Shown here piece after piece: positions 5,353 to 23,034 of a stretch of 32,234 bases of DNA. The translations under genes and the position numbers were made by a program. Within the stretch, counting starts at the first letter, position 1. Each line of letters starts with the position of its first letter. Under the pieces are notes generated by a model. It did no database searches. It had not been told where the DNA came from and saw nothing but the letters and a program-made list of their open reading frames with translations. The stretch comes from Armatimonadota bacterium (lineage in GTDB: Bacteria; Armatimonadota; UBA5829): positions 1-32,234 of the forward strand of contig JAPLCU010000044.1 of assembly GCA_026392045.1 (NCBI GenBank), in the 5' to 3' direction.

Positions 5353-5405
5353 GATTCTCCTCCGATTAAATAAAACGTTAACTTGGCAGATTCGGATGAC
5401 CACTT

Positions 5406-5457
5406 ACGGGCGGGATTGCAAATCCCGCCCGAACAATCGTTGGCCCGAACAATCGTT
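5406..5457. repeat. REP-like palindrome with tandem tail, copy 1
   Basis: A perfect 10-bp inverted repeat (GGGCGGGATT 5408-5417, AATCCCGCCC 5421-5430, loop GCA) is followed by two copies of CCCGAACAATCGTT (5428-5441 and 5444-5457, period 16). The same palindrome stands at 22968-22990, and a variant at 8575-8627. It lies between the two minus-strand paralogues and could also act as a transcript-end hairpin for the upstream one. Confidence 0.85.
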
Positions 5458-8574: not shown

Positions 8575-8643
8575 CCATGTTCGGGCGGAATCTTAACCAT
8601 GTTCGGGCGGAATCTCTGATCCGCCCGTCCCAGATATTTTTTT
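8575..8643 (+). terminator. REP-like repeat copy 2, doubling as accA terminator
   Basis: CCATGTTCGGGCGGAATCT occurs twice (8575-8593 and 8597-8615). The second copy forms an 8-bp stem CGGGCGGA (8604-8611) with TCCGCCCG (8620-8627), followed shortly by a T-run (8637-8643). Read on the minus strand it has the same order as the copies at 5406 and 22964: palindrome, then a CCGCCCGAACA edge, then a tandem duplication. It may work as the Rho-independent terminator of accDA. Confidence 0.7.
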
Positions 8644-15763: not shown

Positions 15764-17971
15764 CTACATCCCCGAATAAAGCTGGCTCTTAGGAATAACC
15801 TGCCTGCCCTGGCCGCGGCATTCCCATTCAAGCCGGACGCTTGCGTCGCCGGTTGCTTCGTAGAAATCCACTTGTATGTCATACTTTCGGCCTGCTTTCA
15901 TGCTGATTTTGCCGGTGTAGGTGATGTGGTCTTTATCGTTCCACTCGTCAATCAGCAGTTTGCCGTCCAACCACAGCCTGCAACCGTTGTCTGAGGTTAA
16001 GTAGAATGTGTAATTGTCGGTATATCGCGGTTCTATTTTGCCAGTCCATTTTGCTGAGAAGTAATCTGGGTTTATTGATGGGTCCGGGCTTTTGTCCGCC
16101 CAGTCCCAGTCGATTGTCGGATCGATGCGGGTAAGCTTTGGTTCGGAAAGAATTTTGGAGTTGAAATACTGGCCTTGGAGGCCGTCGCCCCTGCCGAGCG
16201 CCGGGACATATCTCTCGAACCTGATCCAGCCGATGTTTTTAGAGGAAATCTTGCCGGTGAGCTTGAGGTAGACATCGTGAAAGCCGTAGCAGTCTTTTAG
16301 AACGCAGTTGGCCTTAGACGCCATGCAAGTGCCGACGAGCTTGCCTTTCGGCCCGTCCAGCCTGATCTCGATTTTGCCGCTTTTGGCGCCCGCGATTCCG
16401 GCTTCAAAATGGCCCGAGCCCATTCCAAAAGCCATATTCTTGAAAACCAGCAGTGTGTTCTTTTTGCTGTTTGCGGACTTTGCGCTGATTCGCTCATAAG
16501 GGTTCTTAACAGGGGCGCTGCCGGGCATGGTGAACGTGTTGAACGACCGCGCGGGCAGCGTGGGCGTGACCACCGTCTTTCCGAACCTGATCGCGACTTT
16601 CTGTGCCTGATCAGAGTTATTTCTGACGATAATTACCTGCTCGCCGTCCGGGTTCACGAATGCGATTTTGTCGCCGCCGGGCCAGGTGTTCTTTTTGGCG
16701 TCGCCTATGCCGTCATAAGTCCCCGAAACGCCTATTCGATACGCGCCAGGCTGCACATAGCAGCTGAAATGTTTTGCGGCGAAGAATTGGGGGTTGTAGC
16801 GCACCTTGCCGGTGTCTTTGAAGACCGTGATCATGGAGTTTTGCGGCCAGCCCCAGCTGCTCTTGCCGGTTGGTTCGAGGATCATGTTCCATTGGGTGTA
16901 GGCGTTGACTCCTGCCTTGAGCCATTCGATCATCGAGCCGAGGGTATAATCGCCATAATACCAATCGTTCGGCGCAGTATCTTTGAATGCGCCCCAGCCC
17001 CAATCACCCCACCAGCAGTTGCCGCATTCGTGCTCGGTGGAGTAGATGCGCATGTCGGGGAAGTCACCGCGGGTCATGGCGGCGGTGGGCCTGCCTCCCC
17101 ACTGGAAACCGCAGCCGCTGATGTATTTAGCTGCTGCCGGGTCCTTGAGGGTATCCTGGACGTAATCTTTGTATTTGTCCTGATTGATAGTCCCCAGCCA
17201 GATTTCTGCATTGACCTTGTCTTTTTTGAACTGCGGGCCGAGGTAGTTCTTGATGAAATCTCGCATCTGCTGGCCTGTCCAAAGGCACGATGGGTAATTT
17301 GGGCCCTCGAAAGGCTCGTTTTGGACGTGCACAGCAAAGACATTTATCCCCTCGGCCTGATATGCCTGCACGTATTTTTCGAAGTAAAGGGCGTAGGCGG
17401 CGAGAGTTTTAGGGTCCTGATTGAGATTCCCACCCGAATAACGCTTTTTGGATTTCATCCATGCCGGCGGCGACCACGGCGAACCCCACATTTTCAGGTC
17501 AGACCTATAATTCATCGCTGCTTTTATATAGGGAATGAGGTATTTGCGGTCGCGATCCAGCGAAAACTTGCTCATGGAATAGTCTTGATCGTTGTCGTTG
17601 AGCGAATAATAGTCCATGGCGTAATCATTCGCGCCAATTGGCATGCGGCAGACATTGAACTTGCAGCCGTCCTTGGGATCGAAGAGCGCTTTGATTACAT
17701 CATCGCGATCTGCTTCGCTTGCTGCTGAAAGGGCATCCCAACCAAGCTCATTGAAACACCCGCCCCAGCCCTCAATCTTCTGATATAGCATGGAGGGGTC
17801 GATCTGTATGACGCTGGGCGCATCGGTTTTTGTGCTTGCTGAAAGCGCGCCTTTATCAACCCAACGCTGGGCATCGGTAGTGCATCGCCATTTTACGGTC
17901 GGCGCGGCTTGTGCAATGCCTAAAGACAGCATTAATACTGCAATTCCCAAAAACAATCTCAAAGTTCGCAT
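15764..17971 (-). CDS. Secreted GH30 glycosidase with CBM6 and PA14 domains
   Basis: This is a 735-aa secreted glycoside hydrolase of family GH30 (glucosylceramidase / beta-1,6-glucanase / xylanase clan A). The ATG at 17971 gives a clean signal peptide (MRTLRLFLGIAVLMLSLGIA-QA). The core ~60-490 shows YQKIEGWGGCFNELGW, MWGSPWSPPAWMK, the acid/base Glu219 in HVQNEPFE and the nucleophile Glu313 in YSTEHECGN. Residues ~495-590 look like a CBM6-type module (GKIEIRLDGPKGKLVGT, GFHDVYLKLTG). Residues ~595-735 are a PA14 domain (GQYFNSKIL, DNYTFYLTSDNGCRLWLDGK, VRLEWECRG). The two extra modules suggest binding to polysaccharide. It has its own good promoter at 18016-18044. It lies between two arabinofuranosidase-bearing regions, consistent with plant or microbial polysaccharide use. 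Subfamily specificity cannot be read from the sequence. Confidence 0.93.
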   Translation of the reverse strand: MRTLRLFLGIAVLMLSLGIAQAAPTVKWRCTTDAQRWVDKGALSASTKTDAPSVIQIDPSMLYQKIEGWGGCFNELGWDALSAASEADRDDVIKALFDPKDGCKFNVCRMPIGANDYAMDYYSLNDNDQDYSMSKFSLDRDRKYLIPYIKAAMNYRSDLKMWGSPWSPPAWMKSKKRYSGGNLNQDPKTLAAYALYFEKYVQAYQAEGINVFAVHVQNEPFEGPNYPSCLWTGQQMRDFIKNYLGPQFKKDKVNAEIWLGTINQDKYKDYVQDTLKDPAAAKYISGCGFQWGGRPTAAMTRGDFPDMRIYSTEHECGNCWWGDWGWGAFKDTAPNDWYYGDYTLGSMIEWLKAGVNAYTQWNMILEPTGKSSWGWPQNSMITVFKDTGKVRYNPQFFAAKHFSCYVQPGAYRIGVSGTYDGIGDAKKNTWPGGDKIAFVNPDGEQVIIVRNNSDQAQKVAIRFGKTVVTPTLPARSFNTFTMPGSAPVKNPYERISAKSANSKKNTLLVFKNMAFGMGSGHFEAGIAGAKSGKIEIRLDGPKGKLVGTCMASKANCVLKDCYGFHDVYLKLTGKISSKNIGWIRFERYVPALGRGDGLQGQYFNSKILSEPKLTRIDPTIDWDWADKSPDPSINPDYFSAKWTGKIEPRYTDNYTFYLTSDNGCRLWLDGKLLIDEWNDKDHITYTGKISMKAGRKYDIQVDFYEATGDASVRLEWECRGQGRQVIPKSQLYSGM

Positions 17972-18015
17972 GGTCAAGTTAGTTCCTTTCATCAAACTCA
18001 ATATCTTCCAAGCCC

Positions 18016-19620: not shown

Positions 19621-19697
19621 AATGGGAGGGCGAGGCTCCCGCCGAGCCGTTGTCACTGCGCAGAGATGCGGCTCAGGGGGACCTTCGACCTCCCATT
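19621..19697. repeat. Nested palindromic repeat element
   Basis: A 77-base element begins 4 bases after the M24 stop. Outer arms AATGGGAGG (19621-19629) and CCTCCCATT (19689-19697) are perfect. An inner stem GAGCCG (19644-19649) pairs with CGGCTC (19669-19674). The GGGCGAGGCTCCCGCCGAGC wording resembles intergenic repeats seen in planctomycete and verrucomicrobial genomes (from memory). It may be a dispersed non-coding repeat or an mRNA 3' structure. Confidence 0.7.
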
Positions 19698-19802: not shown

Positions 19803-22196
19803 ATGGCAATAAGTGCAGGTGATTCTGCCGAAATGAAGAATGATTACCCGATAAGGCCGGTGGCCTTTACCGCGGTAAAGTTTAATGACAAATTCTGGGC
19901 GCCGCGCATGGAGACAAACCGCGCGGTTTCCATCCCTTTTGCGTTTGAAAAGTGCGAAGAGCATGGCCGAATGGCAAACTTTCAGATAGCAGGCGGCCTT
20001 ATTGAGGGCGAGCACAGAGGCGAGTATCCGTTCGATGAAACGGACGTTTATAAGATCCTCGAGGGCGCATCCTACGCGCTTATGGTGCAGCCGGACCCTA
20101 AGCTGGACAAATATTTGGACAATATCATCGCAATGATCGCAGGCGCGCAGGAAGAGGACGGCTATCTCTATCTCCCGCGCACAAATAAGGCCGAGCATTT
20201 ACGAGATTGGTTTGGGGCTGAGCGCTGGAGCAACCTCGCGCGCAGCCATGAGCTATATAACCTCGGTCATCTGTATGAGGCGGCTGTTGCTCATTATCAG
20301 GCGACAGGTAAGCGCACGCTTTTGGATGTTGCGCTCAAAAGCGCTGATTTTTTGTGTGAGAGCTTCGGGTGGGACAAAAATGTCTCGCCTCCCGGCCATC
20401 AGGTAGTCGAAATGGGTCTCGCCAAGCTCTACCGTGTGACCGGTGATGAGAAATATATCAAGCAGGCGAAGTTCTTCCTCGAAGCACGCGGACATGCGCG
20501 GACCAACGATGGCAAACCGACCGGCGAGGGCGCAAGGCTCTGGAGCGAATACACTCAAGATCACAAACCCGTTCTTGAGCAGGACGAAGCCGTCGGGCAT
20601 GCCGTCCGCGCGGTCTATATGTATGCGGGAATGGCGGATGTTGCCGCTCTGACAAGCAATCCAGAGTTCACCGAGGCTATCGATAAGCTTTGGGAGAATG
20701 TGGTTCAGAAGAAACTATACATAACCGGCGGCGTCGGCGCCTGCGGCGACGGCGAGAGATTTGGAGCGAATTACGAGCTGCCGAACATGACCGCCTACTG
20801 CGAAACCTGCGCTCAGATCGGCTATGTATACTGGAATCATCGCCAATTCCTGCTCCACGGCGAAGGCAAGTATTTCGACATCCTTGAGAGAACACTTTAC
20901 AACGGCCTGATCTCCGGCGTGAGCATGGATGGCAAGCTTTTCTTCTACCCGAACCCGCTCAGCTCGTTCGGCCAGCACGCCCGCAGCCCCTGGTTTGGCT
21001 GCGCCTGCTGCCCCGGCAATGTCACCCGATTTATGGCAAGCATTCCCGGCTATGTTTACGCTCACAAAGACGACATGCTCTATGTGAATCTGTTCGTTTC
21101 GGGCGAAGCGACCATCGCAATGGACTCCGGCAAGGTGAGTATCGCCCAGGAAAGCAATTACCCGTGGTGCGGCAAGATCGCCATCACGGTAAACCCCAAG
21201 AACAGCGGCGAGTTCACGCTGGCTGTTCGTGTTCCAGGTTGGGCGCATAACGAGGTCGTTCCGAGCGACCTCTACAGCTATGTGGAGAAATCAGACGAGA
21301 AATACACCGTCACGGTCAACGGCGAGGAAGTCCGCGGATGCCTGACCAAAGGCTATGTATTGATCAAGCGCAACTGGGCCGCTGGCGATAAAGTTGAAGT
21401 CGATCTCCCGATGCCTGTCCGCCGCGTGATCGCCAACGATCTGGTTGCTGAAGACAGAGGACGTGTCGCAATCGAGCGCGGGCCAATTGTTTTCTGCGCC
21501 GAGTGGCCGGACAACAAAGACGGCAACATCTTCAATATACTCCTTAACGATGATGCGCCGCTCGCAGCCCAGTGGCGCGGCGATATGCTAAATGGCGTCA
21601 AGGTAATCACCGGCAAGGCTATGGGTCTTTCAAAGGAATCCAAAGACGGCCCAGTTATCCGCGAAGAGCAGGAAATCACGCTTATTCCATACTATGCGTG
21701 GGCGCACAGAGGCAAGGGCCAGATGGCTGTTTGGCTCGCTCGCACCGAAGATGCCGCCAAGGCGCTGATGCCGGGCAACGCCACCTCCGAGGCCATTCCA
21801 AACTCCTCAAACGAGGGCGAAGCCGTTATGGTTGCCATGCCGGATGATCCAAGCGGTTCATTCGACCCAAGCGCAGGTTTCTTCAGTTGGTGGCCGAGAA
21901 AAGGCAGCGCCGAGTGGCTGGAATACACCTGGAAAGAGCCGATCACAGTGAGCTCGGTTGACGTTTATTGGTTTGATGACACAGGTCACGGCGAATGCCG
22001 CACTCCTGAGAATTGGAAAATCCTCTACAAGGATGGCAACGACTGGAAACCCGCCGAAAACCAGCAGGGCGGCGGCATCACGAAGGACATGTATAACCAT
22101 CACACATTCACTGAAGTCACCACCGATGGCCTGAGGCTGGAAGTGAAACTTCAGGAAGGCTTCTCTTGCGGCGTTTTGCGATGGAGAGTTAATTGA
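19803..22196 (+). CDS. Cytoplasmic-type GH127 beta-L-arabinofuranosidase
   Basis: This 797-aa GH127 (DUF1680) enzyme is clearly homologous over its full length to the one at 194-2593. Shared blocks include KCEE-GR-NF-IAGGL, PKL-KY-D-II, DGYLY, DKLWENVV, LPMPVR-VIAN and the C-terminal YWFDD. The catalytic/zinc set is intact: Glu318 (GERFG), Cys336 (CETC) and Cys402-Cys403 (CACCPGN). Unlike the first copy it lacks a signal peptide (MAISAGDSAEMKNDYPIRPV), so it probably acts on oligosaccharides taken into the cell. The ATG has GAGAGGA about 9 bases upstream; a second ATG at 19833 is possible. The C-terminal discoidin-like region is retained, which is unexpected for an intracellular enzyme. It stands downstream of two palindromes that insulate it from the M24 gene. 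Confidence 0.94.
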   Translation: MAISAGDSAEMKNDYPIRPVAFTAVKFNDKFWAPRMETNRAVSIPFAFEKCEEHGRMANFQIAGGLIEGEHRGEYPFDETDVYKILEGASYALMVQPDPKLDKYLDNIIAMIAGAQEEDGYLYLPRTNKAEHLRDWFGAERWSNLARSHELYNLGHLYEAAVAHYQATGKRTLLDVALKSADFLCESFGWDKNVSPPGHQVVEMGLAKLYRVTGDEKYIKQAKFFLEARGHARTNDGKPTGEGARLWSEYTQDHKPVLEQDEAVGHAVRAVYMYAGMADVAALTSNPEFTEAIDKLWENVVQKKLYITGGVGACGDGERFGANYELPNMTAYCETCAQIGYVYWNHRQFLLHGEGKYFDILERTLYNGLISGVSMDGKLFFYPNPLSSFGQHARSPWFGCACCPGNVTRFMASIPGYVYAHKDDMLYVNLFVSGEATIAMDSGKVSIAQESNYPWCGKIAITVNPKNSGEFTLAVRVPGWAHNEVVPSDLYSYVEKSDEKYTVTVNGEEVRGCLTKGYVLIKRNWAAGDKVEVDLPMPVRRVIANDLVAEDRGRVAIERGPIVFCAEWPDNKDGNIFNILLNDDAPLAAQWRGDMLNGVKVITGKAMGLSKESKDGPVIREEQEITLIPYYAWAHRGKGQMAVWLARTEDAAKALMPGNATSEAIPNSSNEGEAVMVAMPDDPSGSFDPSAGFFSWWPRKGSAEWLEYTWKEPITVSSVDVYWFDDTGHGECRTPENWKILYKDGNDWKPAENQQGGGITKDMYNHHTFTEVTTDGLRLEVKLQEGFSCGVLRWRVN

Positions 22197-22963: not shown

Positions 22964-23034
22964 GGACGGGCGGGATTGCAAATCCCGCCCGAACAAAGAC
23001 TTTTCCGCAACAATGACTTTTCCGCAACAATGAC
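22964..23034. repeat. REP-like palindrome with tandem tail, copy 3
   Basis: The palindrome GGGCGGGATT-GCA-AATCCCGCCC (22968-22990) is identical to the one at 5408-5430 and shares the flanking ACGGG and GAACAA. It is followed by a perfect 17-base tandem duplication GACTTTTCCGCAACAAT (22998-23014, 23015-23031). It lies between convergent genes and could terminate both. Confidence 0.87.

Follow-up and report, generated by a model that had tools for sequence, protein, structure and literature searches.

The dispersed palindromes in the DNA studied here are copies of a REP-type element, that is, a hairpin with an unpaired tetranucleotide foot. It is very probably a non-autonomous element that was spread by a RAYT of the subclass 2.6/group 5 kind, the gene for which lies between inverted copies of the element in relatives. 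The stretch analyzed (the window, 32,234 nt) is contig 182 of a MAG of 3.55 Mb (98% complete) from an Armatimonadota bacterium, hereafter the host. Our statistics for the host cover the stretches around the listed sites and 20-kb samples.

Element copies in the window

The window contains three copies of the element (Table 1). A sequence-only reading had reported three sites, each followed by a tandem duplication with a period of 16, 22, or 17 bases, and its coordinates and periods were confirmed. The three hairpins all terminate in CCCGAACA. The reading had also assigned one palindrome, GGGCGGGATT, to all of the sites. This holds for copies 1 and 3, which share one sequence, CGGGCGGGATTGCAAATCCCGCCCGAACA. 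The stem and loop of copy 2 are different (GGGCGGATCAGAGATTCCGCCC; full form CGGGCGGATCAGAGATTCCGCCCGAACA), and copy 2 is a relative of GGGCGGGATT, not a copy of it. When copy 1 was folded as single-stranded DNA, the bases left unpaired on the 5' side of the stem were exactly TGTT (−14.5 kcal/mol, z −5.6). Of the linker and first hairpin that precede this hairpin in the fuller two-hairpin unit described below, copy 1 retains only the linker, and sequence like this linker precedes CGGGC in copies such as L011, L026, L071, L078, and L001. The tail of copy 2 consists of the foot and the 5' arm cut off in the loop, and the copied part in the tail of copy 3 stops at the foot itself. A megablast search of the window against plasmids gave no match.

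Table 1. Element copies and associated features in the window.
Feature	Positions	Strand	Description
Linker remnant of two-hairpin unit	5394..5406	+	GGATGACCACTTA (other copies GGATGGCCACTTA); similar sequence before CGGGC elsewhere
Element copy 1	5407..5435	+	Hairpin CGGGCGGGATTGCAAATCCCGCCCG and foot AACA (minus strand: TGTT and hairpin)
One-sided tail of copy 1	5427..5457	+	GCCCGAACAATCGTT(G/A), period 16, 1.9 copies; junction is a 15-base run
One-sided tail of copy 2	8575..8596	-	Plus strand CCATGTTCGGGCGGAATCT and TAA; 19-base run, period 22
Element copy 2	8600..8627	-	Hairpin CGGGCGGATCAGAGATTCCGCCCG and AACA, loop class AGA
Element copy 3	22967..22995	+	Hairpin identical to copy 1; between convergent genes
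One-sided tail of copy 3	22992..23034	+	AACAATGACTTTTCCGC, period 17, 2.5 copies; begins exactly at the AACA foot

The window also carries a hairpin of another dispersed host family (GGAGGGCGAGGCTCCCGCCGAGCC, 19621-19697). Inverted repeats similar to GGAGGGCGAGGCTCCCGCCGAGCC flank a very divergent RAYT in one relative (L213 in G007). Two paralogous genes for GH127 beta-L-arabinofuranosidases (194-2593 and 19803-22196), stretches of which are about 70% identical, and a GH30 enzyme encoded on the minus strand (15764-18001) were found in the same contig. Judged by these GH127 and GH30 genes, the host is presumably a plant-polysaccharide degrader.

The family in the host genome

Further copies had been expected elsewhere in the genome, and they are numerous. 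The pattern CGGGC-N9-29-GCCCGAACA matched 101 hairpins in the host genome, while the reversed control pattern matched none. The edge CGCCCGAACA occurs 116 times, versus 13 for its reversed pattern. By contig strand, the 101 hairpins are divided into 58 and 43. They have three classes of loop and share common ends: class A is (A/G)GATT-GCA-AATC(C/T), and GGGC is usually followed by one additional base; class B is ATC-AGA-GAT, whose 3' arm carries an additional T or C; and class C is CCCGAT-TAA-ATCGGG. Changes in the inner stem keep their partners (G/A...C/T; GG/GC/AG...CC/GC/CT), as do the rarer changes in the outer stem (GGCC...GGCC, GCCC...GGGC). The constant part is the closing C-G pair followed by AAC, which is partly fixed by the search pattern and was also kept when the loop alone was searched; the next base is A in 76 of the 84 host copies. 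Nearly all of the copies that we read have the foot TGTT (AACA on the other strand). The TGTT strand folds as single-stranded DNA with exactly this tetranucleotide unpaired before the stem, and the stabilities of the hairpins range from −9.8 to −14.5 kcal/mol.

The element is mainly intergenic in the sampled host stretches. In 23 stretches, in which 87% of the sequence is coding, 6 of the 38 pattern matches fall within ORFs, and two of these six resemble chance coding matches. The element therefore shares with REPs an imperfect palindrome of 20–50 nt, a high copy number, a mostly intergenic location, and a kept unpaired tetranucleotide at one hairpin foot. Its foot is TGTT, not GTAG (GT[AG]G) or CGTC. 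Dispersed copies are mostly single or arranged head to tail, and they are not REPINs, in which two inverted REPs form the mobile unit; clear inverted pairs are seen around RAYT genes.

The intergenic host copies have a preferred orientation, with the TGTT strand along transcription: among 32 such copies, 18 lie between co-directional genes read on the TGTT strand and five between genes read the opposite way. Other hairpin families are found near the element. One of them, GTCCGGGAACAGATTTCCCGGACGATC, which was seen at three loci and is likewise dispersed, sometimes lies within 100 nt of the GAACA element, and others (GCTCGGCGGGAGCC, GTTTCGGGATTT, GCTTCGGGAC) often come close after the AACA foot (five loci), as if one hairpin family might serve as a landing site for another.

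The element in relatives and in Bacteroidales

The family is strongly expanded in the host. Up to 11 pattern matches were found in the sister genus g3, and the other relatives are near background. Near relatives within the family of the host, to which G014 also belongs, hold the element in low number or not at all. An exact scan for GATTGCAAATC-N1-2-GCCCGAAC in 84,980 species genomes gave at least 83 matching stretches, and nearly all of the matches listed are from rumen Bacteroidales.

The unit in Bacteroidales is fuller than that in the host. It consists of hairpin 1 (G-C/G-ATT-GCA-AAT-G/C-C), a linker of about 11 nt, hairpin 2, and AAC. A 62-nt tandem array of this unit was seen once, in the Bacteroidales locus L142. 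Of the 87 Bacteroidales copies, 72 have an upstream stem of at least 5 bp, as opposed to 9 after shuffling; for the 84 host copies, the corresponding numbers are 14 and 7. Some host copies retain hairpin 1 and the linker GGATGGCCACTTA, and many have only hairpin 2 and the TGTT foot. The same plan of hairpin and linker is thus present in Armatimonadota and in a second phylum.

RAYT genes and their flanks

In sister species of the host, a RAYT gene is located between two inverted copies of the element (L198 in G002, L197 in G014, and L203 in G011). TTGTTC-hairpin 2-linker-hairpin 1 faces hairpin 1-linker-hairpin 2-GAACA, and the ends consist of inverted TTGTTCGGGCAGAT..ATCTG..CCG..GGCATC on both sides. 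Alignment of the three loci showed that the ends match up to TTGTTC and that the sequence outside is unrelated. The RAYT genes of the Bacteroidales loci L145 and L154 are bracketed likewise, and a fragmentary Bacteroidales RAYT (L125) has one adjoining copy. The arrangement in L197, L198, L203, L145, and L154 is that of a REPtron. The products of these five loci score 95.8–101.7 bits against the NCBIfam model of the REP-associated tyrosine transposase (cut-off 80), and L154 matches the solved TnpArep structure 4er8 weakly. The element-flanked RAYTs all fall within one clade of 13 (support 98/97), which contains no host RAYT.

TnpA subclass 2.6, which corresponds to group 5 of Bertels, occurs chiefly in Bacteroidetes and has been described as "flanked by atypical secondary structures"; its motifs are NH[LIV]H, WQ, and YIH[QN]NP in about 179 residues (PMC6006769). 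L154, as read from the DNA, has NHLH, WQ, and YIHQNP in about 179 residues and fits all of these motifs. L198 has THIH, WE, and YIHQNP and departs from them, in a comparison of motifs only, with a tree built without group 5 references. The best explanation of these features is that the spreading enzyme would be an HUH single-tyrosine transposase (RAYT) of the subclass 2.6/group 5 kind.

The search for a RAYT proposed by the sequence-only reading succeeded in part. Two family searches of the host MAG found RAYTs of five other lineages (C179, C107, C65, C96, and C24) plus fragments, and they detected no member of the cognate clade, which is present in the sister genomes and Bacteroidales. The host RAYTs carry their own, different inverted repeats wherever the flanks are readable. 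Since these searches found no cognate RAYT, either the host copies are orphaned or the assembly has a gap where its gene lies.

RAYT genes are usually single-copy and have not been seen to move. One host RAYT lineage, which has inverted GTTTCGGGATTT ends, was found at six places; the copies are about 95–100% identical, and some of them keep the ends with the middle deleted. With such a distribution, the unit seems to be mobile and to form MITEs.

Gain or loss of the RAYT unit was observed at one locus. The unit with both inverted ends sits between two genes, which we take from their sequences to be dciA and rtcB, in G002 and G014, whereas G007, G013, and the host have a short intergenic sequence without it. 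The comparison shows that the unit comes or goes at this locus, and it does not give the exact target site. Together with the RAYT genes between inverted copies, this locus lends good support, through the relatives, to the original suggestion of a REP-like element moved by a RAYT. Empty sites in relatives had also been proposed as a check; the RAYT unit is absent from this locus in G007 and G013, and no precise empty site was seen for a solo copy. Copy 2 lies downstream of accA, and no element adjoins accA in the ten relatives compared. The genes downstream differ from those of the host, and we therefore rejected this locus as a clean empty site.

One-sided tails

The tandem duplications are on the same side of the element, as had been noticed in the window, where all three are on the AACA side. 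We counted recurrences within 60 nt, using for each side the element's sequence at that end; the search pattern by which the copies were gathered fixes bases at both ends. In the host, 14 of 84 copies have the last nine bases of the element again on the AACA side, and 2 of 84 have the first nine again on the opposite side (sign test, P = 0.004; 0.3 expected for each after shuffling). In Bacteroidales, the recurrence is on the foot side in 17 of 87 copies and on the opposite side in none (P = 1.5e-5). These P values are only a guide because the copies are related. A broader host count of tandem runs of at least 12 gave 16/79 on the right and 4/79 on the left (0.8 expected), and part of these runs are unrelated 7/14-base repeats. 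About one host copy in six has a tail; therefore, the claim that the palindrome is always next to a duplication fails. For the other hairpin families of the host, the test of sidedness is uninformative, since these are symmetric and both orientations entered the count.

Read on the transposase strand, a tail has the form [flank][TGTTC][part of the 5' arm] ahead of the intact element. Typically, 0–11 bases of flank are shared. The copied arm mostly stops 3–5 or 10–12 bases in, which is close to the foot of the stem or within the loop. A fixed cleavage dinucleotide at the junctions, such as C|T in E. coli, was not seen among 27 pairs, in which CT occurs only twice. Independent truncated insertions were considered as a source of the tails and rejected for many of them; the repeated unit includes several flank bases, and many tails are therefore duplications.

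Many intergenic stretches of the host (at five loci, for example) carry 7/14-base tandem repeats (TTCATAATTCAG.., CCTAACACC.., GGAAAGT..) that are unrelated to the hairpins.

Origin of the copies and of the tails

In the explanation that we favor, the RAYT would recognize a strand with 5'-TGTT followed by an imperfect hairpin of 20–36 nt, in which the loop has 3 nt and one base is usually bulged; the fullest form is TGTTC-hairpin 2, a linker of about 13 nt, and hairpin 1. The enzyme would bind the foot and hairpin and move the element as single-stranded DNA. The copy number could instead reflect selection if the hairpins are kept for a role in the host, such as transcription termination or protection of mRNA ends, to which their mainly intergenic location and preferred orientation relative to neighboring genes would correspond. 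We consider this very unlikely. No T run consistently follows the hairpin on either strand, the element is scarce or missing in near relatives of the same family, the plan of hairpin and linker recurs in another phylum, and inverted copies bracket transposase genes. Spread in trans by a host RAYT of another clade is unlikely as well. It would account for a host with five RAYT lineages and none of the cognate clade, but every host RAYT has a different inverted repeat of its own, and the TGTT element goes with its own RAYT clade in the relatives examined.

The TnpAREP of E. coli cuts 5' or 3' of the single-stranded REP and not of its complement (iREP), depends on the tetranucleotide at the foot, and produces a 3'-OH that could serve as a primer for synthesis or attack the bond to the tyrosine (PMC8266576). 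By analogy, a group 5-like RAYT may act in the same way with TGTT as the foot. Less certainly, it would nick the flank at a distance of a few bases from TGTT, on the 5' side; synthesis from the freed 3' end would copy the flank, the foot, and the 5' arm again as far as the stem foot or the loop, and the extended end would then be rejoined to the tyrosine-held strand. Formation of the tails by such nicking, re-copying, and rejoining is possible, at rather less than an even chance. Ordinary replication slippage, which the sequence-only reading had also considered, has a considerable chance of being right, though short of even. The nascent strand would fold, and its 3' end would slip back and re-copy the arm, foot, and flank, with no transposase needed for the tail. 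The stable hairpins favor slippage, as does the presence of tails in the host, where the cognate RAYT was not found, and it accounts equally well for truncation inside the loop or close to the foot of the stem. However, tails would be expected on both sides of a near-palindrome, either strand of which should slip, and the counts are 14 versus 2 and 17 versus 0. Slippage leaves the one-sidedness unexplained because the elements lie in both orientations. Thus, slippage promoted by the palindrome is possible for the tails, but it does not predict their strict sidedness, to which a strand-specific RAYT would be better suited. The sidedness is only suggestive of a RAYT that works on the REP strand and not on its complement. 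As a tentative reading, the truncated one-sided tails may be direct footprints of RAYT chemistry, namely, a nick in the flank, primed re-synthesis, and rejoining.

Relation to known systems

The element resembles the REPs and REPtrons of E. coli, Pseudomonas, and Stenotrophomonas in that its hairpin is short and imperfect and has a one-sided unpaired foot, its copies are many and mainly intergenic, and the RAYT gene lies between inverted copies (PMC8266576, PMC3733652). Their foot is GTAG or CGTC, in contrast to TGTT here, and further differences are the fuller unit, in which a linker joins two hairpins in constant order, and the one-sided tandem tails. It shares with group 5/subclass 2.6 the motifs and length of the enzyme (L154), non-GTAG flanking structures that are copied elsewhere in the genome, and Bacteroidetes hosts. 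The group 5 repeats have been described merely as "atypical" (PMC6006769), whereas the foot, hairpin classes, linker, and tails are given here, and the carriers now include Armatimonadota with variants of the HUH motif (THIH). TIRtrons (TIRYT) also have RAYT genes between inverted repeats, some of which are self-complementary, and dispersed solo copies, but no TGTT foot or tails are reported for their repeats (PMC3733652). The other RAYT lineages of the host look more like these. The ends of IS200/IS605 elements (IS608 and ISDra2) are alike in the HUH-Y1 enzyme, the bulged hairpins, and, by analogy, a tetranucleotide 5' of the foot as a guide. Unlike in IS200/IS605, no left and right pair with defined cleavage sites was recognized, and the dispersed units are mostly solo hairpins.

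The REP/RAYT system itself is already known, while the TGTT tag, the two-hairpin anatomy, and the tails look like new features. Full-text literature searches returned no description of a TGTT foot, the two-hairpin unit, the occurrence in two phyla, or the tails, a weak indication because subscription papers were mostly outside their scope.

The little-described group 5/subclass 2.6 transposases would gain a defined DNA partner, with a TGTT foot, hairpin classes, a linker, and a second hairpin. The mechanism of REP dissemination is open, although the cutting by the enzyme is known in vitro. One-sided partial duplications in two phyla provide many natural candidate reaction products to read. If the proposed origin of the tails is true, RAYTs would copy REPs by a local, replicative, rolling-circle-like step, which is the still unexplained part of the spread of REPs.
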